Shown one piece after another: positions 234 through 18,338 of a stretch of 23,028 nucleotides of DNA (position 1 is the stretch's first letter; every line of letters begins with the position of its first letter). Source of the stretch: a virus. The position numbers were made by a program, and so were the translations under genes. The notes under the pieces were generated by a model. It did no database searches, had not been told where the DNA came from, and saw only the letters and a program-made list of their open reading frames with translations. Location: the IMG/VR virus record IMGVR_UViG_3300043331_000268, positions 1-23,028 of that record, one strand, 5' to 3'.

Positions 234-1517
234 ATGGCCTTCATACTGCCCCCCGCAGGAAACCGTTACGACCGCCGGAACGAAAACGAAGCACGCAGGA
301 TCGTGGAGCAGGCTTTCGCCGAGCTCTCGACCCGCCTGGAGGCCGTAGAGGCCATCATCGCGGCCGGCGGGGTCACGCCTGACCCTGATCCCGTAGGCCC
401 GACCGCCGGCTTCACGTTCAGCGTCCAGAACCTCGTGGTGAGCTTCACCGACGCCTCGACACCGGGCGACGCGGCCATTACGGCACGCCTCTGGACGTTC
501 GGAGATGGCACCACCAGCACCGCCCCGAACAACCTGACGCCGGTCCACACCTACCCCGACGCCGGCACCTATCAGGTCACCCTGAAATGCACCGACGCGA
601 ACGGGCTGGAGCACACCTCCGCACCCCAGAGTGTGACGGTCAACGAGGAATTCGGGACCGCCCCGATCATCAACCTGGCGCGCGGCCCGAACACGCAAGC
701 CGACATTGCCCCCTACACCTTCTTCAACGGCGCGCAGATCGGCGGCCTCAACCCCGCCAACTGCGTCACCACCATCGACGGGTTCGCGAATTCCGGCCAG
801 AAGGTCGCCCTGCGCCTTTATCGGGACGCCGACTGCAAAGACGCGAACGGGGTGTTCATCGTCTCCGGCTGGAAGGCTTCGGTGCGACGGTACTTCGACG
901 CCGGCCTGGCGCCCTACCTGAACGGCCGCGCCGACGACGGGACCATCGTGTACTCGGACATCATCGATGACATCAAGGCGGGGCATCGGTGGGGGCGGGT
1001 CATCACCGAGGCCGAAATCGATGAGATGAGCGCCTTCCACCGCTCGCTCTATCCCAACATCCAGGCCTGGGTGCGGGCTCGGACGATCCAGATCGGCGCC
1101 TTCCCCTTCCAGCACCTCCAGGGGTGCAGCTCGATCTACCTGTTCAACCGCGGTGGCGTGCCGGAGCAGGGTCGCATCGCCGACTGCACGGCCTACCGGG
1201 ATCAGGAGATTGCCAACCGGCCGCTCGTGAACGGGCAGCCCATCGTCCTGTCGTTCGGCATCAACATCACGAACGGCGGGGACGGCACGAGCGGCCAGGT
1301 GGGTGAGAACCCCGGCTCGAATGCCAACTGGCGCATGAGTGCCCAGGAGCTCCGCGACTACGCCGACATCCTCGTGCCGGGGACGCCGGCCTCGACCGTT
1401 CAGCGGGTGTTCCAGCAGTGGGAATACAACGACGGTGCCGGTATGGCGGCCTACCTGGCTGACCCAGCGATTGTGGCGTCGCAGCAGTACATCCGTAGCC
1501 TCTGCGACGCGCAGTAA
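234..1517 (+). CDS. PKD-domain virion protein with a putative barrel-like C-terminal domain
   Basis: This 427-residue protein has three parts. Residues 1-45 form a charged, helix-prone module (YDRRNENEARR...TRLEAVEA) that closely matches the whole 45-residue protein at 17843. Residues 56-137 are a PKD (Ig-like) domain with the typical WTFGDG (87-92) and HTYPDAGTYQV motifs. Residues about 141-427 alternate strands and helices (VFIVSG, IVYSDIIDD, SSIYLFNRGG, PIVLSFGIN, FQQWEYND) like a TIM barrel. Asp in SDIIDD or Glu in QQWEYND could be catalytic, but no family is recognised. No signal peptide is seen. It is the first gene after the promoter and lies just before terminase. It is most likely an exposed tail or head appendage that binds, or perhaps cleaves, a surface polysaccharide. 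The PKD call is strong; the enzyme idea is inference. Confidence 0.7.
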   Translation: MAFILPPAGNRYDRRNENEARRIVEQAFAELSTRLEAVEAIIAAGGVTPDPDPVGPTAGFTFSVQNLVVSFTDASTPGDAAITARLWTFGDGTTSTAPNNLTPVHTYPDAGTYQVTLKCTDANGLEHTSAPQSVTVNEEFGTAPIINLARGPNTQADIAPYTFFNGAQIGGLNPANCVTTIDGFANSGQKVALRLYRDADCKDANGVFIVSGWKASVRRYFDAGLAPYLNGRADDGTIVYSDIIDDIKAGHRWGRVITEAEIDEMSAFHRSLYPNIQAWVRARTIQIGAFPFQHLQGCSSIYLFNRGGVPEQGRIADCTAYRDQEIANRPLVNGQPIVLSFGINITNGGDGTSGQVGENPGSNANWRMSAQELRDYADILVPGTPASTVQRVFQQWEYNDGAGMAAYLADPAIVASQQYIRSLCDAQ

Positions 1518-1553: not shown

Positions 1554-2978
1554 TTGACTGAGCAACACACGCCGACGCTGATGGACGAATTCCTCGCGCG
1601 CTACGAGAACGACCCGGTTCTCTTCGTGCGCGAGGTGCTGGGCGCCGACCCCTACGACGACCAGCTTGAGATGCTGGAGGCTTACGCCCGGCGCGACCGG
1701 CGCATCACGAAGCGTAGTGGTCACGGTCCTGGCAAGACCACCTCTCTTGCTTGGATAATCACCCACCACGCTGCCTGTAGGTACAAGCAGAAGACGGTCT
1801 GCACGGCCCCGACGAGCTCCCAGCTCTTCGATGCGCTCTATGCGGAGACGGTGACGTGGTTCAACAAGCTGCCGCCCATCGTGCGGGGCCTGTTCGAGAT
1901 CAAGAGTGAGTCCATCGAGCTCATGGCTGACCCGGAAGCCTCGTTCATCAGCTTCCGCACCAGCTCGGCAGACAAGCCGGAGGCCCTGGCCGGCGTCCAC
2001 AGCGATTGGGTGCTCCTCATCGTGGACGAGGCATCCGGCGTGCCGGAAGCGATCTTCGAGTCCGCGGCCGGCTCGATGTCGGGCCACAATGCCTGCATGA
2101 TCCTCGCCGGCAACCCGGTGCGGACCAGCGGGCTTTTCTTCGAGACGCACACCAAGCCGGAGCTGGAGGCCTCGTGGACTCGGTTCCACACCTCCTCCGA
2201 GGGCCACCCCAACGTGGCGCCGGACTTCGTCCAGCAGATGAAGGACACCTATGGCGAGGACAGCGACGCCTATCGTGTCCGTGTCCTGGGCGAATTCCCG
2301 AAGGGCGAAGCCGACACGGTCGTCCCGTTCGATCTGGTGCAGGCCGCACTCTCGCGGGACGTCAAGCCGCTCCCGGTGCGGCCGATCTGGGGGCTCGACG
2401 TGGGTGTCGAGAACGACCCGAGCGCCCTCTGCCAGCGCCGCGGGAACGTGCTGGACTGTCCGACCGAGGAATTCCGGGCCGACGGTGACCCGATGCGGGT
2501 AGTGGGATGGGTGAAAGCGAAATGGGACACGACGCTCCCCTCCCAGCGGCCGAGCGAGGTCAACGTGGACAGCATCGGCATGGGCCTGGGGGTGGCCTAC
2601 CGGCTGCTGGAGCTCAACATCCCGGCGCGAGCCATCAACGTTTCTGAGTCGGCGGCCATGAAGCAGCAATTCATGCGTCTCCGTGACGAGCTGTGGTGGA
2701 AGGCGCGTGAGTGGTTCCAGAAGCGGGACTGCCACATCTGCGGGGACAAGGCCCTGGCGCGGGAGATCGTCCGGCCGACCTACAAGCCGACCGACAACGC
2801 GAAGATCAAGGTCGAATCGAAGCGTGACACGAAGAAGCGGACCCGCTCGAAGTCGCCGAACCGCGCGGATGCGTTCATCCTGACCCTGGCCGGCGATGCC
2901 ATCACCGCGAGCGGCACCGACGCCCAGCCGATGAGCTGGAAGGAACCACTGAAGCGGGAGATCAAGGGGATAGTGTGA
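1554..2978 (+). CDS. terL: Terminase large subunit (packaging ATPase and nuclease)
   Basis: A 474-residue DNA-packaging motor. The N-terminal ATPase domain has Walker A SGHGPGKT (55-62) and Walker B VLLIVDE (153-159). The C-terminal RNase H-like nuclease has the expected acidic residues: D282 in WGLDVG, D339 in NVDSIGMG and D439 in NRADAF. These hydrolyse ATP to move DNA into the prohead and cut the concatemer. Length is normal for the family. The listed start is TTG at 1554; ATG at 1581 (MDEFLARYE) is an alternative that keeps all motifs. The stop overlaps the GTG of the next gene (GTGA). The usual small subunit gene is not upstream; an appendage gene sits there instead. Confidence 0.95.
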   Translation: MTEQHTPTLMDEFLARYENDPVLFVREVLGADPYDDQLEMLEAYARRDRRITKRSGHGPGKTTSLAWIITHHAACRYKQKTVCTAPTSSQLFDALYAETVTWFNKLPPIVRGLFEIKSESIELMADPEASFISFRTSSADKPEALAGVHSDWVLLIVDEASGVPEAIFESAAGSMSGHNACMILAGNPVRTSGLFFETHTKPELEASWTRFHTSSEGHPNVAPDFVQQMKDTYGEDSDAYRVRVLGEFPKGEADTVVPFDLVQAALSRDVKPLPVRPIWGLDVGVENDPSALCQRRGNVLDCPTEEFRADGDPMRVVGWVKAKWDTTLPSQRPSEVNVDSIGMGLGVAYRLLELNIPARAINVSESAAMKQQFMRLRDELWWKAREWFQKRDCHICGDKALAREIVRPTYKPTDNAKIKVESKRDTKKRTRSKSPNRADAFILTLAGDAITASGTDAQPMSWKEPLKREIKGIV

Positions 2979-6625: not shown

Positions 6626-9600
6626 ATGGCGGCCCCGACATTTGTCAGCGCGTCCGCGATTGCGGCGGACGTCGATACCAATGTGCAGGTCACGCTGGGC
6701 ACCCATGCCGCGGACGATCTTGGGCTGCTCCTGGCGTGGTCGCGTGATGCCAATGACGTCGCGTTCAGCATCGACCAGGGGTGGTCGGAAGTCCACACGT
6801 GGACAACGACTGAGCCGCTGTCGAGCTCGAACATCCGAATCTCCCTCTTCAAGAAGCTGCTCACCTCGGCGTCGGAGACCAATCCTACGGTCACCGCCGA
6901 CGAAGACGTCACGGTCATGTACGCGATGGCTGCCGTGTACCGCGGCGACGGGAGCGGTGAGTTGGAAGTGCGGGTCGTCGGCACGCCCGCGAGCAGCAAC
7001 GCCGATCCCCTGACCATCCCAGGCATCACGACGCTCGATCCCGACTCCCTGGTTGTCGTGGGGTACCTCTACTCCAACGACAATGCGTCTGCGGTCGATA
7101 TGACGGCTACCGACCCGGCCACATTCACCGAGCACTATGCCGAGGATGCAGCCGGCGCGAACGGGAGCATCGCCTTTGCGGAAGGTGTGCGCTCGACGGC
7201 CGGCGCGACGGGCGACATCACGGCGGATCTGAATGCCACGTTCACCGCGAACAAGGTCAACTCCGGCATCGCGATTGCTATCGCTGTGCAGTCCGAACCA
7301 GCGGGCGCGACCGGCTCCGGCGCCCCGGTCGATACGCTCACCTCGGTGGCCGCCGGCACCGCGATTCAGAAGTTTGTTGGTACGGGCGCCCCGGTGGATT
7401 CGCTCACCTCGGTCGCCGCCGGTACTGCGACGCAAAGCACGGTGCCTTTCTGTGTGGGGGTCGGAGCCCAGGTCGCGGGTTCCACCAACGGGGCGACGCT
7501 CTCGCCGGCATTCCCTGGCGGGTACTCGGTCGTGCCCGACGACTTCATGTTGGTGGTCGTCTCCGGTAACACCGATACGCCGGGAGCCAACCCGACCACG
7601 CCGACCGGGCTGACACTTCGCACGGCCGTCGAGCACGAGGTCGGCGCGCGTGACCTGCGGACGGTCACCTACTACCGAATCTTGCAGGCCGGGGATTCGG
7701 CGCCGCAATTCACGATCCCGACGGCCTGGTCCGGGGCGGCCGCGGGCGGCATGACGGCCCAGATCGCCATTTACCGTGGCGTAGACCCGTTCACGCCGTT
7801 CGACGCCGCGGACGTTACCCACACCTTCGACACGCTGGCGAACGGGCAGTGGCAGCCGACCGGCATCACGACGGTCACGGCCGATGCGCGGGTACTCTCC
7901 ATCGTCTCGACCACGCGCGTCTCTGCGGTGGCGCTCCATACCGCCAACAGCTTCACGCTACGGGCCGGCGGTGCGGCCTACGACACTTCGGAAGGTGGCG
8001 AGCTGTCTTTCGGTCTCGCGGACTTCCTGAAACAGGCTGCCGGGGCGACGACTAACCCGGTCTGGGTCACCTCCCCCGCCGAGACGACGCCGGTTGCGAA
8101 CATCACGTGCGCCTTGCGGCCCGCGTCGCCTCCGGCTCCGGTTGAGGGCTCCGGCGACCCGGTAGACACGCTCACGTCGGTGGCCGCCGGCACTGCGGTT
8201 CAGAAATTCGTCGGCACCGGGGCGCCGGTCGATACGCTCACGTCAGTGGCCGCCGGCACGGCTACACACACTCATACGGCTTCCGGCGCCCCGGTAGACA
8301 CCCTCACCTCGGTTGCGGACGGCACTGCGACCAATACCGCCCCGGAGCCGGGATCTGCCATCGGGACCGGCTCTCCGGTCAGTACGCTTACCTCCGTGGC
8401 CGATGGGGACGCCTCCAGCGTCGAGGATGCGATGACGGGCGCGGGTGCGGTCGTTGACATTCTCGTTTCCATCGTGAGCGGCACGGCGAGCCAGAAATTC
8501 AGCGGCAGCGGCGCCCCGGTCGATACGCTCACCTCGGTAGCCGTCGGCAGCGGGGATCAGGTTGCCTTTGAAGGTGCCACGTTCGTCGCGGCGAGCGGGC
8601 CCCTCTTCTCGACGGGCGACCGGGAGATAGCCTGGCCGGGGACCAACGCCGTTGAGGAAGACAGCAGCATCCAGGCCGATGACGTCGCGTTCCTCTTCGT
8701 CATCACGAAGAACCAGACAGTGCCGGCGTTGCAGCCGGGGGCCGCGGACAGCGCCGGCGACACGTCCGTCTTCACGGCCATCACCGGGGGCGAGGACGGG
8801 GTCGGAACCGCGGGAAATGCCGCGGCAATTCGCATCAAGCCCTATTGGGCGCGGGCGACGTCCCACCACATGCGTTCGGTGCTCATTCCCGATCCGGGCG
8901 CTGCCGTCGGGGCCCTGATGATCGTCCTGCGGGACGTCATCGCGACCGGCGACCCGGTGGATGCGGTCTCGGTCAACCTCACCAGCCCCGACAACACGGC
9001 CTTCACTTTCGACGGCCTGACCACGACGGTCAACAACGGGCGGGTGATTGGCGCGGTGGGCCTCTCGTTCGTGGGCGACCAGACCGGCTCGGGCGTCACG
9101 TTCACCAACGCCGATCTGGCGACCCTCACCGAGCTGGTCGATTCTCTGACCGGCACTGGACCAGGGGGGTTCGGCCTCGCGGCCTTCTCGGGCGAGAAGC
9201 TGGACGCAGGCGCCGTAGGGACCACGGACGGCACAGTCAGCTCCTCTGCGCGTGCCGCCGCCGTCCTCATTGCGGTCAAGCCGGTCCCCCCGCCGACGTC
9301 CAGCACCGGCACCGCCGCTATCACGGACACGCTCACGTCCGTGGCGAGCGGTACGGCAGTCCATGTCGAGAACGCAGGAACGGGCGCCCCGGTCTCGACG
9401 CTGGTCAGTGTGGCGAGCGGCACGGCTACTCAGCTCGCGGACCATACCGGGACCGGGGCCCCGGTCTCGACGCTGGTCAGCGACGCGAGCGGCACGGCCA
9501 CCTCGACCGGAGTCGATCAGATCAGCGCCAGTGGCGCCCCGGTCTCGACCCTGGTCTCCGATGCGAGTGGTCTCTGCTTCACCCGGCCCATCATCACGTA

Positions 9601-9913
9601 CCCGCCGCACACCCCACAGCCGTCCGACGGGGGGCAGGTCCGGCGGGGGCCGAAGCGCACGTACTACGTGGTGCCGGAGGAAGAGCCCGAGCAGCCGAAG
9701 CGGAAGCGCCGCCGTCGGCGCCGGCCGCAACCTGCGGTGGAGGTCGTGCCGCTCCCCGACACACCGGAGCTGCCGCACTTCGAGCCGGTCACGTTCGACC
9801 CGATGCTCTGGCAGCACCTGATGGCGCAGGTCCGGCCGGAGGCGCCGGTGGTGTCCCCGCAGCAGATCGCCGAGGAAGATGAATTCCTCATCCGCTTACT
9901 GGAAACCGTCTGA
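6626..9913 (+). CDS. Giant modular repeat protein, probable virion surface fibre
   Basis: A 1095-residue protein. Three beta-rich domains of roughly 210-260 residues (about 2-229, 274-507 and 650-892) share a plan: a DDFMLVVV or DDVAFLFV type strand, an AIYRG or IVLRD type strand, a long Thr/Val-rich half and a final AIAVQSEP/ALRP/IAVKP strand. They are separated by twelve short repeats of the form GTGAPVDTLTSVAAGTA, in blocks of two, six and four. The C-terminal 110 residues differ: Pro-rich, with a strongly basic KRKRRRRRRP run and an acidic end (QQIAEEDEFLIRLLETV). The ATG follows GGAGG (6609-6613). No signal peptide is seen. Placement between portal and scaffold suggests a head fibre or appendage. 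Family unknown. Confidence 0.75.
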   Translation: MAAPTFVSASAIAADVDTNVQVTLGTHAADDLGLLLAWSRDANDVAFSIDQGWSEVHTWTTTEPLSSSNIRISLFKKLLTSASETNPTVTADEDVTVMYAMAAVYRGDGSGELEVRVVGTPASSNADPLTIPGITTLDPDSLVVVGYLYSNDNASAVDMTATDPATFTEHYAEDAAGANGSIAFAEGVRSTAGATGDITADLNATFTANKVNSGIAIAIAVQSEPAGATGSGAPVDTLTSVAAGTAIQKFVGTGAPVDSLTSVAAGTATQSTVPFCVGVGAQVAGSTNGATLSPAFPGGYSVVPDDFMLVVVSGNTDTPGANPTTPTGLTLRTAVEHEVGARDLRTVTYYRILQAGDSAPQFTIPTAWSGAAAGGMTAQIAIYRGVDPFTPFDAADVTHTFDTLANGQWQPTGITTVTADARVLSIVSTTRVSAVALHTANSFTLRAGGAAYDTSEGGELSFGLADFLKQAAGATTNPVWVTSPAETTPVANITCALRPASPPAPVEGSGDPVDTLTSVAAGTAVQKFVGTGAPVDTLTSVAAGTATHTHTASGAPVDTLTSVADGTATNTAPEPGSAIGTGSPVSTLTSVADGDASSVEDAMTGAGAVVDILVSIVSGTASQKFSGSGAPVDTLTSVAVGSGDQVAFEGATFVAASGPLFSTGDREIAWPGTNAVEEDSSIQADDVAFLFVITKNQTVPALQPGAADSAGDTSVFTAITGGEDGVGTAGNAAAIRIKPYWARATSHHMRSVLIPDPGAAVGALMIVLRDVIATGDPVDAVSVNLTSPDNTAFTFDGLTTTVNNGRVIGAVGLSFVGDQTGSGVTFTNADLATLTELVDSLTGTGPGGFGLAAFSGEKLDAGAVGTTDGTVSSSARAAAVLIAVKPVPPPTSSTGTAAITDTLTSVASGTAVHVENAGTGAPVSTLVSVASGTATQLADHTGTGAPVSTLVSDASGTATSTGVDQISASGAPVSTLVSDASGLCFTRPIITYPPHTPQPSDGGQVRRGPKRTYYVVPEEEPEQPKRKRRRRRRPQPAVEVVPLPDTPELPHFEPVTFDPMLWQHLMAQVRPEAPVVSPQQIAEEDEFLIRLLETV
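7313..7444 (+). repeat. Repeat block 1: two 22-residue PVDTLTSVAAGTA units
   Basis: Residues 230-273 hold two 22-residue copies, GSGAPVDTLTSVAAGTA and GTGAPVDSLTSVAAGTA, each followed by a five-residue spacer (IQKFV, TQSTV). The DNA copies differ at many third positions, so they are not very recent duplications. They link beta domains 1 and 2. Confidence 0.8.
8147..8565 (+). repeat. Repeat block 2: six PVDTLTSVAAGTA-type units
   Basis: Residues about 508-646 hold six copies of 22-28 residues. The first four stay close to GTGAPVDTLTSVA(A/D)GTA. The fifth is diverged (AGAVVDILVSIVSGTA) and the sixth reads GSGAPVDTLTSVAVGSG. The spacers vary in length and sequence (VQKFV, THTHT, TNTAPEPGSAI). 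The block links beta domains 2 and 3. Confidence 0.8.
9302..9582 (+). repeat. Repeat block 3: four APVSTLVSVASGTA-type units
   Basis: Residues about 893-986 hold four copies. The first is TAAITDTLTSVASGTA; the others read GAPVSTLVS(V/D)ASG. The change from VDTLTSV to VSTLVSD runs through the block, suggesting local duplication. It precedes the basic C-terminal tail. Confidence 0.8.
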
Positions 9914-12900: not shown

Positions 12901-13226
12901 TGGACAGCCGCATTCTCGCATCCGATCCGATCACGAAGGCCCAGACGATCTTCCATGGGCACAACGACGACGCCGGCAGCTACACTATCGAGGAGACGCA
13001 GGACGTCACCGATCTCGTGGAGCAGAACCGCGCCCAATACAACAGTGTGGACGAGCGCGCTGGCTGGAAGGGCAACATGCACCGGGTCGCCTCGATCCCC
13101 CTGGTCACGTTCTTCGACCTGTGGAAGAAGGGCTATTTCCGTGGCAACAAGCTGTCGAAGGACGACAAGCGTTGGCTGAATGATTCGGAGAATCGCTTCT
13201 TCAGGACGCGGCCGGGTACTCTGTGA
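12900..13226 (+). CDS. Conserved phage protein of capsid neighbourhoods, unknown function
   Basis: A 108-residue protein starting MDSRILASDPITKAQTIFH. The ending WLNDSENRFFRTRPGTL and the middle HRVASIPLVTFFDLWKKG are familiar from a small family found near capsid and tail genes in many phages. The fold and function are unknown; a virion or assembly role is inferred from position. No membrane segment is seen. Its ATG overlaps the stop of the spanin-like gene, and its stop overlaps the GTG of the glycosyltransferase, so the three are probably translated together. Confidence 0.75.
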   Translation: MDSRILASDPITKAQTIFHGHNDDAGSYTIEETQDVTDLVEQNRAQYNSVDERAGWKGNMHRVASIPLVTFFDLWKKGYFRGNKLSKDDKRWLNDSENRFFRTRPGTL

Positions 13227-13936
13227 GCGAGATCAAACTCGACCGCCCGGTGAAGCCGTTCCGCGTCGCGGTGAGCATTCCCTGCGGCGATGAGGTGAAG
13301 ACCGGATTTGCCTACGACCTGTCGAACCTGATGTGCGCGACGTGCCTCTCGCGGGACGACGTCGAGCTCCGGCTGCACACGCTCAAGGGCACCATCTTGT
13401 CGAAGAGCCGTGAAGAGCTCGCCTTCATGGCACTTGAGCATGATTACACCCACCTCATGTTCCTCGACAGCGACATGCGGTTTCCCCGGAACGCGCTCCT
13501 CCGGCTGCTCGCGCGGGACACTTACGTGATCGGCGCCAACTACGCCACCCGCCGGTATCCGGTGCGGCCGGTGACCTTCGCCGACGATGAGGACGCCTCG
13601 AAGCGGGTCTTTACCGAGGAGGGCGCCGATGGGGTCGAGCAGGTCGCCAGCATCGGCATGGGCTGTGCCCTGATCGATCTGGACGTCTTCAGGGCCCTCC
13701 CCCGACCCTGGTTTGCCATGCCTTGGGATGAGAAGGCTCGCGCTTTCATAGGGGAGGATGTATACTTCTGCCGCAAGGTCCGGCAGGAGCTGGACCTGCC
13801 CATCCTCGTTGACCACGGCCTCTCCCAGGAGATCGCCCATGTCGGCGAGTGGGAATACCGCCTAGACCATGCCCGCGCCCTGCGGGATGAGGCGCCCCAG
13901 AACACCCCGGTGGCACCCCTGGTCGTGGCATCCTGA
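13223..13936 (+). CDS. GT-A-fold glycosyltransferase
   Basis: A 237-residue protein with features of family-2-like glycosyltransferases: an N-terminal Rossmann-type strand (FRVAVSIPCGDEV), the metal-binding DSD in HLMFLDSDM (82-84), a YVIGANYATRRYP stretch, a small-residue segment (ASIGMGCALIDLDVF) and an acidic EDVYFC motif (178-183) that could hold the catalytic base. It would transfer a sugar from a nucleotide-sugar to an unknown acceptor. It starts with GTG overlapping the previous stop, and its stop overlaps the adaptor ATG (TGATG). It is therefore embedded in the head-tail operon, suggesting that a virion protein may be glycosylated. Host surface sugars or DNA are alternative targets. 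Confidence 0.75.
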   Translation: MSEIKLDRPVKPFRVAVSIPCGDEVKTGFAYDLSNLMCATCLSRDDVELRLHTLKGTILSKSREELAFMALEHDYTHLMFLDSDMRFPRNALLRLLARDTYVIGANYATRRYPVRPVTFADDEDASKRVFTEEGADGVEQVASIGMGCALIDLDVFRALPRPWFAMPWDEKARAFIGEDVYFCRKVRQELDLPILVDHGLSQEIAHVGEWEYRLDHARALRDEAPQNTPVAPLVVAS

Positions 13937-14562
13937 TGGCACTCAACATCGCCAGTTACACGGAACTGAAGGCGACAGTCGCGCGGTGGCTCAACCGCGG
14001 CGACACGGAGCTCCTGGCCGACATCCCCACGATGATTGCCATCGCGGAGGAAGAGATCAGCGCCGAGCTGCGCGCCCAGGTCACACGCGCCGCGCTGACG
14101 CTCGACTCGGATGAGGTCACGCTCCCCGACGACTGCGGTCAGCTCCGGGTGGTGCGGTTCGACACCGCTACGCTCCGGCACGCGCTTGACATCACAACCG
14201 ACGTGGCCCTGGCGGGCCTGCGTCGGGTGGGCACCGGCATCCCGCAGTATGCGGCCGTCGTGGACAACACGCTCCTGCTCGACATCGAGCCGGGCGACGA
14301 CTACACGGCCGAGATCACCTACTACGACAAGCTGGTCCCCCTCTCGGACGACAATCCGTCGAACGACATACTGACCAACTCGGCCCGGATCTACCTCTTC
14401 GGTGCCCTGAAGGAAGCCGAGCCGTTCTTGCAGCACGACGAGCGCATCCCGGTGTGGGAAGCGAAATTCGCGAAGGCCATCAGTGATGAGAACGTACGGC
14501 GCGAACGCGCCGAGCTTGCAGCCGCGCCGGTAGTCATGCGACTGCCGACGGTCATAGGGTAA
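13936..14562 (+). CDS. Head-tail adaptor protein (SU10/P22 gp4-like)
   Basis: A 208-residue helical protein of the phage adaptor family. It forms the ring under the portal that joins head to tail. Typical parts are SYTELKATVARWLNRGD, the helix IPTMIAIAEEEISAELR, the short beta insert LTLDSDEVTLPDDCGQL and LLLDIEPGDDYTAEITYYDK, and the final helices ARIYLFGALKEAEPFL and WEAKFAKAISDENVRR. Length and order match adaptors encoded after the capsid gene in SU10- and BPP-1-like phages. Its ATG overlaps the glycosyltransferase stop. Confidence 0.85.
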   Translation: MALNIASYTELKATVARWLNRGDTELLADIPTMIAIAEEEISAELRAQVTRAALTLDSDEVTLPDDCGQLRVVRFDTATLRHALDITTDVALAGLRRVGTGIPQYAAVVDNTLLLDIEPGDDYTAEITYYDKLVPLSDDNPSNDILTNSARIYLFGALKEAEPFLQHDERIPVWEAKFAKAISDENVRRERAELAAAPVVMRLPTVIG

Positions 14563-14565
14563 GCC

Positions 14566-15141
14566 ATGCCAGATACAGTCAACTACGGGTGGACGATGCC
14601 CACGGAGGGCGGGTCAACGGGTTCCTGGGACACGATCCTTAACGCACTCCTTGTCGAGCTCGATGCCCAGGTCAAGACGAACGAGAACAAGGCCGACGAC
14701 GCGCTCGCGGAGAACCTCTCGTTCCCGTTGTTCGATGCGGCGGCGCTCGGGCAATTCTCGATTGACCAAACGACTGTCGCGACGTCGCGGAATGGCCCTG
14801 GCGGTGGTGTCACGCTGGTTCAGACGTCACCGGCCACGCAGGAAGTCCTCATTCAGATCCATGGTCTGGCTCCAGGCATGCGGATCACCGGGTTCAAGTC
14901 GCGGGGTCAAGCGCCGACCGGCACCTCCTGCTCAGTGGTTCTCTCCTCCGTGGATGCGACGGGGACAGTGACGATCCACAGCACACACAGCCATGGCTCG
15001 ACACTCCAGACGCTCACGAAGACGGGCCTCTCCATCGATGTCGCCGCCGACCGGACCTACTACTTCCGCGTCCCGCTGGGCAGCGTGTCGAACGATGGTG
15101 CCACGATCTATTGGGTGCAGCCGACGGTGACGAGGCCGTAA
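14566..15141 (+). CDS. Tail-appendage protein with conserved N-terminal module
   Basis: A 191-residue protein. Its start, NYGWTMPTEGGSTGSWDT, is a hallmark of many phage tail fibres and small tail proteins. It is followed by a helix (ILNALLVELDAQVKTNENK) that may trimerise. Residues about 70-191 are beta-rich (VLIQIHGLAPGMRITGF, CSVVLSSVDATGTVTI, RTYYFRVPLGSVSNDGATI), like a compact beta-sandwich receptor-binding tip. It is short for a fibre, so it may be a stub onto which others attach, or a decoration protein. It lies between the adaptor and holin-like genes. Confidence 0.7.
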   Translation: MPDTVNYGWTMPTEGGSTGSWDTILNALLVELDAQVKTNENKADDALAENLSFPLFDAAALGQFSIDQTTVATSRNGPGGGVTLVQTSPATQEVLIQIHGLAPGMRITGFKSRGQAPTGTSCSVVLSSVDATGTVTIHSTHSHGSTLQTLTKTGLSIDVAADRTYYFRVPLGSVSNDGATIYWVQPTVTRP

Positions 15142-15900: not shown

Positions 15901-16332
15901 GTGCTGACGCTCACGCGCACCGTCCGTAATGCGGACGGTGTGTTTGGCGTCCTGCGGATGCCCGGATTCGTGTGCGTCACCGCGGAGGAGCAGGACTTGG
16001 GCAACGCCCGCAACGTGTCCTGTATTCCTGCGGGCACCTACCCGTTCAAGCGGACGACGTACTTCAAGCACGGCTACCCGACGTACGAGGTGTGCGACGT
16101 GCCGGGGCGTAGCCGCATCCTGATCCATCCCGGCAACACCGAGGAAGACACAGATGGATGCATCCTGCTCGGCCTCCAGCCGGGCAAGCTGCGGGTCAAG
16201 GACGAGGACACCGGCAGCCGGGAGTGGAAGCATGGCGTCCTCCACAGCCAGAAGGCCTTCGCCCGGTTCATGCAGCACATGGGCGCCATTCAGTCCACCA
16301 CGATCACGATCCAGTGGGCTGACAACGTATGA
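15901..16332 (+). CDS. DUF5675 family protein, possible wall-acting enzyme
   Basis: A 143-residue protein matching the DUF5675 pattern: LTLTRTVRNADGVFG, the core CIPAGTYPFKRTTYF and SRILIHPGNTEEDTDGCILL. H76, N79 and C87 (IHPGN...DGCILLG) resemble the His...Cys layout of YkuD-type L,D-transpeptidases, though without the full HGT...SHGC signature. A cell-wall role is therefore a hypothesis. It sits one gene after the holin-like gene and begins with GTG next to the previous stop. Its end overlaps the gp10-like start (ATGA). No other endolysin candidate is visible in the window, which makes it the best candidate here. Confidence 0.7.
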   Translation: MLTLTRTVRNADGVFGVLRMPGFVCVTAEEQDLGNARNVSCIPAGTYPFKRTTYFKHGYPTYEVCDVPGRSRILIHPGNTEEDTDGCILLGLQPGKLRVKDEDTGSREWKHGVLHSQKAFARFMQHMGAIQSTTITIQWADNV

Positions 16333-17843
16333 TCGAAACCCTCATCCCTATCGAGATCCCTCCCGGCCTTTTCCGCAACGGCACGCGGCAGGACGCCGCT
16401 GGCCGCTGGTACGACGGTAATCTGATTCGCTGGGTCGAGGGCTACCCACAGCCGGTGGGCGGGTGGCGCGAGGCGCAGAGCAGCTCGGGCGGCCCGCTCG
16501 GAGAGCTCACAGTGAGCACGACGGCGCGGTTCAACTCCGCGCTGGCTTGGCGCCGGAACAACGGCGACCCGCGGCTTGCGCTCGGGAGCAACGAGAACCT
16601 GCTGGTCTTCAACGGTGAGATCATCGGTGGCAACACGAGCAACCTGGGCTCTGGGGCGGGCCTCACGACCGGCGGGCCGACGTCGGTGATGACCGGTGGC
16701 GTCTACGGCGCCGGAGCCTACGGCGACGGCCCGTACGGTGACGGCTCGGGTGCGCTCGCCCTGGTCGAGGCCGCGACCTGGCAGCTCGACACGTTCGGGG
16801 AAGTGCTGCTCGGGGTGCTTTCCACTGATGGCCGACTGCTCCAGTGGACGGGCACGGGGATACTAACCGCCGTCTCTGGCGCACCCACAGGCAACATCGG
16901 CGTCGTGGTGACGCCGGAGCGATTCGTGATGGTGCTCGGCGCGGGCAGTGACGGGCGCAAGGTCCAGTGGCCCGATCAGGAGACCCTGACGACGTGGACC
17001 CCGCTCGACACCAACCAGGCTGGGGGCTTCACGCTTCAGACTCGCGGCCGCATTAAGTGCGGTCTCAGGACGAAGTCCCAGACCCTGATCTGGACGGACG
17101 TGGACTTGTGGAGCGCGAATTACATAGCCGGTGGTCTGGTATATGGCTTCCAGCAGGAGGGCGACAAGTGCGGCATCATCGGCCCTCAGGCTAAGGCCGC
17201 GACCGACACGCAAGTCTTTTGGATGGGTCGCAACTCGTTCTACGTGTACGACGGCTTCGTGCGGAAGCTGCCGTGCGAGGTACATGACTACGTCTTCGAG
17301 GATTTCAACGAGCTCCAGGGAGCCCAGGTGTGGGCCCAGACGCTCGCGGAATTCGGAGAAGTGACGTGGCACTACTGCTCCGCGGCGTCGGACGAGATCG
17401 ACCGCTACGTGACCTACAACTACCACCAGAAGCATTGGACTTTCGGTGAGCGGGCGCGGACCTGCGGGGTGGACGCCGACGTCTACACTCGGCCGGTCAT
17501 GGTGGGCACTGACCGCAAGCTGTACGAGCACGAGATCGGCGAGAACCGCGGGAGTGAGACGCCGTTTCTGGAGAGCGGGATCGTGACGCCTGACCGGAAC
17601 CGTACGATGCGCGTGCAGGGTCTGGTGCCGGACGGGAACGCGCTGGGCGACGCCAAGGTGTCCTTCTACGGGTCGTACCATCCGGTGGAGACGGAGACGC
17701 TGTACGGCCCCTACACGATGACGAACCCGACGGACGTCCGGTTTTCTGCACGGCACATTCGGGTCCGCATCGAGGAGAACAGCGACACCTCGTGGCGGGT
17801 GGGGCTCCCGCAGCTCGCAGTGCTGCCCTCGGGACGCCGGTAA
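16329..17843 (+). CDS. P22 gp10-like tail/DNA-stabilisation protein
   Basis: A 504-residue protein. It starts IEIPPGLFRNGTRQDAAGRW, then LIRWVEGYPQPVGGWRE, typical of the podovirus tail-nozzle family related to P22 gp10. Repeated blade-like segments follow (WRRNNGDPRLALGSNENLLV, FGEVLLGVLSTDGRLLQWT, IGVVVTPERFVMVLGAGSDG, ATDTQVFWMGRNSFYVYDG), consistent with a beta-propeller. A Tyr-Gly repeat lies at 126-140. It would sit below the adaptor and keep packaged DNA in the head. Its start overlaps the DUF5675 stop and its stop overlaps the next ATG. Confidence 0.8.
   Translation: MIETLIPIEIPPGLFRNGTRQDAAGRWYDGNLIRWVEGYPQPVGGWREAQSSSGGPLGELTVSTTARFNSALAWRRNNGDPRLALGSNENLLVFNGEIIGGNTSNLGSGAGLTTGGPTSVMTGGVYGAGAYGDGPYGDGSGALALVEAATWQLDTFGEVLLGVLSTDGRLLQWTGTGILTAVSGAPTGNIGVVVTPERFVMVLGAGSDGRKVQWPDQETLTTWTPLDTNQAGGFTLQTRGRIKCGLRTKSQTLIWTDVDLWSANYIAGGLVYGFQQEGDKCGIIGPQAKAATDTQVFWMGRNSFYVYDGFVRKLPCEVHDYVFEDFNELQGAQVWAQTLAEFGEVTWHYCSAASDEIDRYVTYNYHQKHWTFGERARTCGVDADVYTRPVMVGTDRKLYEHEIGENRGSETPFLESGIVTPDRNRTMRVQGLVPDGNALGDAKVSFYGSYHPVETETLYGPYTMTNPTDVRFSARHIRVRIEENSDTSWRVGLPQLAVLPSGRR
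16704..16748 (+). repeat. Three tandem YGxGx units in the gp10-like protein
   Basis: Three 15-base units encode YGAGA, YGDGP and YGDGS (residues 126-140). The Gly/Tyr-rich run is likely an exposed loop between propeller blades. Confidence 0.6.
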
Positions 17844-17980
17844 TGGCGCGCATCCCGGTCCCGCCGGCCCCGGCCGCGCACGACTTGCGGAACCAGAACG
17901 AGTACCGGCGCCTGGTGGACCGGATGATCCAGCAGCTCCGGGTGCGGCTCCAGGCAGCCGAGGCCGCCGTAGATGCTTGA
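17843..17980 (+). CDS. 45-residue protein matching the N-terminal module of the PKD protein
   Basis: A short helical protein beginning MARIPVPPAPAAHDLRNQNE and continuing YRRLVDRMIQQLRVRLQAAE. About 20 of its 45 residues are identical, by eye, to residues 1-44 of the PKD protein at 234. Shared blocks are PPA, D-RN-NE-RR-V and RL-A-EA. Its ATG overlaps the gp10-like stop (TAATG), and its end overlaps the next gene by eight bases, so it is translated with tail genes. It may be a tail-attachment helix or a free form of the docking module. Similar short proteins next to tail genes occur in other podovirus-like phages, as I recall. Function unknown. Confidence 0.7.
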   Translation: MARIPVPPAPAAHDLRNQNEYRRLVDRMIQQLRVRLQAAEAAVDA

Positions 17981-18338
17981 TCTGGAAGGGGCTAGACCTC
18001 ACATCGAGGCGGCGCTATCTTACGGGGGTCACACGCACACCTTCGACGACGTGCGTGAGATGATTGAGCGGGGCGAAGCGATCTTCTGGCCCGGCCCCAA
18101 TTCAGCCATTATCACACAAGTCATAGAGCAACCGCAACTGCGGACTCTGCACTTCTTCCTGGCGGGAGGCAATCTCGCCGAGCTGGAAGCTATGCTCCCC
18201 GGTATCTGCGAGTGGGGGCGCAAGGAGCGGGGCTGTAAGTACGCGACCCTGACCGGCCGCAAGGGCTGGGAACGCACCTTCCTCACCAAACGCGAGGGGT
18301 GGAAATCCAATCTGGTAGTGATGTCGAAGGAGCTGTAG
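17973..18338 (+). CDS. GNAT-like phage protein (T7 gp13-like context)
   Basis: A 121-residue protein with the pattern GHTHTFDDVREMIERGEAIF, WPGPNSAIITQVIEQ, RTLHFFLAGGNLAELEAM and KYATLTGRKGWERTFL. This is familiar as a small GNAT-fold protein in the tail/ejection region of podoviruses, comparable to T7 gp13. The acetyl-CoA loop is not clear, so it may be structural or an assembly factor and not an enzyme. Its ATG lies inside the end of the 45-residue gene (eight-base overlap). Three ejection-type genes follow. Confidence 0.7.
   Translation: MLDLEGARPHIEAALSYGGHTHTFDDVREMIERGEAIFWPGPNSAIITQVIEQPQLRTLHFFLAGGNLAELEAMLPGICEWGRKERGCKYATLTGRKGWERTFLTKREGWKSNLVVMSKEL

Follow-up and report, generated by a model that had tools for sequence, protein, structure and literature searches.

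Why should one phage genome encode the same short segment twice, once as the N-terminus of a larger protein and once as a protein of its own? The question is raised by two genes of a 23,028-base IMG/VR virus sequence, the whole of which was searched and is hereafter called the window. Gene A encodes a protein with a PKD domain and lies upstream of the gene for the terminase large subunit (terL), and gene B encodes 45 residues that resemble the start of A. An earlier note, made from the letters of this DNA, had read the pair as an exchangeable tail-docking helix, for which one socket could hold either a bare plug or a receptor-binding protein.

Two homologous modules and the genes that carry them

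The translations of A and B match their coordinates (Table 1). BLASTP aligned the A module with B at 18 of 40 identical and 27 of 40 positive residues (E 1e-11, in a single comparison), and end-to-end alignment with MAFFT gave 21 invariant columns out of 45 with one gap, in agreement with the roughly 20 identities and single gap that had been counted by eye between residues 1–44 of A and the whole of B. The alignment score was reached by none of 1000 shuffles (z = 15.8). When B was searched against the whole 23,028-base record, it matched exactly two places, B itself and A (E 2.6e-8). We concluded from these comparisons that residues 1–44 of A and the entire B protein are homologous beyond reasonable doubt. 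The module contains a YD/HD aromatic element, and a single best heptad register is common to all four A and B modules (those of the window and of the relatives described below), the individual heptad signals being weak (p 0.02–0.12). Neither a tblastn search of annotated phages with the A or B module nor a comparison of the module profile with PDB yielded a meaningful or convincing match, and no solved docking segment was matched; B had no match in Pfam or PHROGs.

Table 1. Positions and supporting evidence for the features of the window discussed here
Feature	Coordinates (strand)	Evidence or description
Gene A	234..1517 (+)	encodes 427 aa: putative docking module, PKD and a C-terminal domain; terL immediately downstream
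A docking module (putative), residues 1-44	234..365 (+)	proline arm LPPA, then RYDRRNENEARR, then heptad helix
A PKD domain, residues 61-136	414..641 (+)	Pfam PF18911, E 1e-14; PF00801, E 1e-11
A C-terminal domain	642..1514 (+)	partial beta/alpha pattern; putative fold only
Terminase large subunit (terL)	1554..2978 (+)	assigned by synteny with annotated relatives; the first gene past A that is conserved; L095 copy 72% identical
SU10-type adaptor protein	13936..14562 (+)	PF24175, E 1e-24
191-aa protein, candidate lateral fibre	14566..15141 (+)	distinct N-terminal fibre-type motif YGWTMPTEGGSTGSWDTILNAL
Tail nozzle, P22 gp10 / SU10 gp17 / Pa223 type	16329..17843 (+)	sequence and predicted fold
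Gene B	17843..17980 (+)	free 45-aa putative docking module, encoded next after the nozzle; L003 has a bare orthologue, B'
121-aa small conserved protein	17973..18338 (+)	3' flank of the slot after the nozzle gene

The PKD domain expected on the larger copy was recovered with Pfam, and it is the only domain recognised in A; no receptor-binding, beta-helix or glycosidase domain was recognisable there. The C-terminal domain contains the conserved blocks DDIKAGHRWGR, SIYLFNRGGVPEQGRIADC and NANWRMSAQELRDYADILVP, and an alternation of beta and alpha elements that is confined to residues ~165–272 of A. It matched no family in Pfam, NCBIfam or PHROGs, and a search for relatives in viral contigs, bacterial genomes and 385 whole genomes returned only the contig L095. 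An AF2 model of A made from 2 sequences was unusably poor (pLDDT 40). The 'barrel-like' fold once ascribed to this domain thus found no support; because the domain has no relative except the L095 protein and no usable model, both the barrel and the role in receptor binding are guesses, the latter drawn from the domain layout.

The gene upstream of B was confirmed as a tail nozzle of the P22 gp10/SU10/Pa223 type by its sequence and predicted fold. It matched phrog_3287 (E 3e-59) and, in PDB, the Pa223 chain 9nwi_Y (E 6e-10). Its AF2 model (pLDDT 82, pTM 0.84) was ranked by Foldseek against the Pa223 tail 9nwi (E 2e-28), followed by the VP1 portal-tail, SU10 and P22 gp10 (gp10–gp26 entry 8eap). 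These matches vindicate the earlier label of a gp10-like tail gene, and place B in the position that we call nozzle+1. The ATG of B shares the last base of the nozzle stop codon (TAATG at 17841–17845), and the following gene starts, with its ATG at 17973, before B has ended; B is therefore a coupled gene within the tail operon, and the tight coupling claimed when the two genes were described as co-translated was right. The protein that follows B had no Pfam match, and its relatives, annotated as acetyltransferase in two phages, lie directly after the nozzle gene in most cases and otherwise after the module gene.

Two further genes of the structural region were remarked on in passing. A 1095-aa protein with many GAPVDTLTSVAAGTA-like repeat units is encoded at 6626–9913, flanked by portal and scaffold genes, and a 237-aa protein at 13223–13936, within the structural block, is glycosyltransferase-like by eye (HDYTHLMFLDSDMRFP).

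The nozzle+1 position in a sister phage and beyond

A scan with the nozzle found the contig L003, whose nozzle is 79% identical and whose next gene encodes B', a bare protein of 46 aa that keeps 20 of 45 residues of the 45-aa B. A scan with the C-terminal domain of A found L095, which encodes A' complete with all three domains (module, PKD, C-terminal) at the equivalent location directly upstream of terL, with 57–58% identity to A. The two contigs come from one metagenome, are fragments of ~6.8 kb with complementary coverage and have diverged from the window to a similar degree; they may be parts of a single sister phage. The pN/pS ratios were 0.50 for the A/A' modules, 0.68 for B/B' and 0.27 for the nozzle. 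By this measure both copies of the module look constrained, and they evolve faster than the nozzle.

A module profile was run over the open reading frames of the collected loci, with matches at E <= 3e-14 taken as confident. Confident matches were limited to nozzle+1 (B, B', L004, L010, L084–86, L097 and L111) and to the position before terL (A and A'), and searches of the whole records agreed in finding the module at these two positions only. At nozzle+1 the module is bare in L004 (80 aa) and L097 (67 aa). It is loaded in L084–86 (open frames of 178 aa, all of one type), L111 (416 aa, with weak tail-fibre matches) and L010 (458 aa, with weak tail-spike matches). Weaker relatives of the type LP..YD..DQ..LR..LERAD were found at nozzle+1 in L158 and at least one gene further on in L011, L012, L015 and L176. 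The 98–99-aa nozzle+1 proteins of L037–L052, alike by eye, had no profile support and were set aside. So was the idea that the position before terL is a general slot for the module: the sole further terL relative found, L180, has no module there.

In 73 of the 78 loci of a wider nozzle scan, mostly from one large clade, the module gene is absent and a small protein of the 121-aa type directly follows the nozzle, which indicates that the module gene is optional and dispensable in those phages. A degenerate DNA pattern of the module matched only L084–86 and the contig of L010. A scan of IMG/VR with the module alignment was unproductive, the alignment being too short or variable, and a module search of 385 whole genomes, run without a positive control, gave no match.

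Across these proteins the N-terminal segment is conserved and the distal part varies (PKD protein, 178-, 416- and 458-aa proteins, or none), the pattern by which a docking anchor is recognised. A nozzle-slot docking or plug module with exchangeable cargo is thus well supported, and to that extent the exchangeable tail-docking first suggested holds: the module recurs at nozzle+1, either bare or with 178–458-aa cargo.

An apparent exchange of cargo was seen in a second lineage, in which the nozzle+1 gene begins MSKI.NVRLPNA. Its bare form is a 58-aa protein in L030–L033 and L053 that matches phrog_32936, a 59-aa family. In L034 the gene encodes 473 aa; the first ~165 bases are nearly identical in DNA to the bare form, after which the sequences diverge sharply, and the remainder matches phrog_1645, a virion structural protein. 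Sequence comparison thus presents the 58-aa and 473-aa forms at one site as an apparent natural cargo swap, and the arrangement of a plug or a receptor-binding protein in one slot does occur between phages. A relationship of this module to that of A and B is suggestive: an hhalign comparison (P 2e-4, probability 44%) is the sole link, B having no HMM match to phrog_32936. No second copy of the module was seen in the fragmentary records of phages with the bare 58-aa form. In these bare-form loci (L030:1777–2280, L031–L033 and L053), the stop codon is followed three bases on by an in-frame ATG and a frame of ~108 aa, to which readthrough would fuse the 58-aa protein.

A proposed plug, a loaded copy and the competing explanations

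We are inclined, on balance, to read the 44–45 residues as a trimeric docking or plug module of the nozzle, with B as the bare plug and A as a duplicated, cargo-bearing and probably surface-binding appendage. The proline-led arm [LV]PPA and the polar-aromatic clasp [YH]DxRNxNExxRR would bind the nozzle, and the heptad helix after the clasp would trimerise the module. Expression from nozzle+1 would supply the bare plug, and the copy upstream of terL would join the module to a PKD spacer and a distal domain of ~290 aa, giving a tail appendage that probably binds a surface. Position, homology and layout are the grounds on which we infer the trimer, its binding to the nozzle, the role of B as a plug and, for A, a place in the virion and the binding of a surface. 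A P22 needle truncated at codon 54 is null (PMC3741392), so that a short bare plug such as B is not guaranteed to be functional.

Do A and B share one socket? In a module tree, weak because it is built on 47 columns, B and B' stood apart from all other modules (92% UFBoot). At column 21 (NExx[FY]RR) A and A' have Ala in place of the Phe or Tyr of every confident nozzle+1 module; at column 13 B and B' have His and the other modules Tyr or Phe. At columns 12, 13, 15, 18 and 26, A and A' are mostly like the loaded nozzle+1 modules and B and B' differ, and the L010 module is more similar to A (z 13.6) than to B (z 5.2). By these residues A and B are separately conserved subtypes. The notion of one socket for a bare plug or a receptor-binding protein stands between phages (58 vs 473 aa) and is rather less likely for A and B of the window, where the tree and column 21 weigh against it. 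On a simple account, copying of a loaded nozzle+1 gene would have come first; the loaded copy would then have come to lie before terL, and the remaining copy would have stayed bare and changed. We regard it as rather unlikely that A and B occupy the same sites on the nozzle, or form mixed trimers, and that the virion thereby blends plugs with receptor-binding proteins. The modules are 45% identical, equal in length and common in heptad register, and one slot does carry bare or loaded forms between phages; the split into A/A' and B/B' subtypes, with its differences at columns 21 and 13, fits different sites or partners at least equally well. That the two would compete or co-trimerise at the nozzle, so that the ratio of gene products decides how many receptor-binding arms each virion has, is unlikely in our judgement.

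Other explanations would give B a different role, or none. B might be what remains as an anchor after truncation of a first receptor-binding protein (RBP), with A docking onto it. Such an arrangement has been proposed for Klebsiella phages of KP34 group A and KP32 group D, which have a truncated first RBP and a separate depolymerase RBP with a short conserved N-terminal peptide (PMC6872550); the window likewise combines a short tail-operon protein with a loaded one encoded at a distance. In the models of those phages, however, the anchor and the peptide differ, homology between them being undescribed, and a T4gp10-like branching domain is involved (PMC6872550), whereas the A and B modules are homologous and B is too small for such a domain. 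Nor is a Latka-type anchor present (identity of 39% or more across no fewer than 166 residues, or a T4gp10-like domain): the module has ~45 residues, and Pfam, NCBIfam and PHROGs gave no such domain in A. We therefore consider docking of A onto B doubtful. It is more doubtful still that B is a decaying remnant, translated and functionless, of a former nozzle+1 fibre that lost its cargo to A. A does retain the loaded-module signature R12 Y13 R15 E18 E26 that B and B' have lost, L010 is nearer to A, and the pN/pS of B/B' exceeds that of the nozzle; but the ratio is below 1, B' has remained open, bare and of nearly the same length beside a clearly related nozzle, and lineages further removed also have bare forms (58, 67 and 80 aa). 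Finally, B could be an assembly factor that seats the nozzle on the adaptor, its likeness to A reflecting a common nozzle surface used for another purpose. The 99-aa gp7.3 of T7 binds where the nozzle meets the adaptor, between neighbouring subunits of the nozzle (PMC11784390), and the coupling of the B and nozzle genes also speaks for such a role. The loaded versions at nozzle+1 suggest instead an exposed appendage, and we consider this explanation highly improbable.

Relation to known tails and significance

Gene 26 of P22 presumably follows gene 10, and the SU10 needle gene likewise its nozzle gene, as we take from their numbering. In relatives with solved structures the product encoded at nozzle+1 is associated with the tail, among them the P22 needle gp26, seen with gp10 in the in situ entry 8eap, the SU10 needle and the Pa223-type product. 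One of the closest parallels to the plug that we favour for B is the trimeric P22-type needle (gp26; knobbed in Sf6 and HS1), whose base is a DNA plug and whose distal tip is exchangeable and non-essential in the laboratory (PMC3741392). The window nozzle has the predicted gp10 fold and B is likewise encoded directly after a gp10-type gene. In contrast, the module has no detected sequence similarity to the needle (Pfam, PHROGs, PDB), the needle has 233 aa against 45 in B, and the window has a further copy, with cargo, close to terL.

In SU10 the needle gp18 is bound to the nozzle channel, and the trimeric short fibre gp16 docks on a loop of the gp17 nozzle through its N-terminal ~25 residues, a Tyr-Ile-Tyr clamp (PMC9509320). 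This docking motif appears to differ from that of the module. Judged by sequence, the SU10-like lateral fibre of the window is more likely to be the 14566–15141 protein than A or B; its N-terminus, YGWTMPTEGGSTGSWDTILNALLVELD, resembles those of the phiM5 'putative host-binding tail fiber' and of proteins in L077 and L078. It is a third possible fibre of the phage.

The solved structure of the nozzle+1 product of Pa223-type phages (PDB 9nxp) comprises three chains, and the gene that precedes their nozzle has a product solved under the name 'Tail fibers protein'. The nozzle+1 protein of Bruynoghevirus (Pa223, KG853) likewise follows a homologous nozzle and has a Pro-containing N-terminus, a helix-like segment and a distal domain; its N-terminus has no sequence similarity to A or B. 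The phrog_32936 module is likewise free-standing at nozzle+1, and in L034 heads the 473-aa protein.

Exchangeable attachment ends of fibres are known; it is unusual to find free and loaded copies together in a genome, as here and in the sister phage. Our results suggest that a short-tailed bacterial virus has reused one plug-in connector with and without cargo. If A and B compete or mix, a short tail could tune the number of its receptor-binding arms. Even if they do not, nozzle+1 holds a connector of ~45 residues, bare or loaded, and marks where to seek tail proteins in uncultivated short-tailed phages whose fibres are unannotated.
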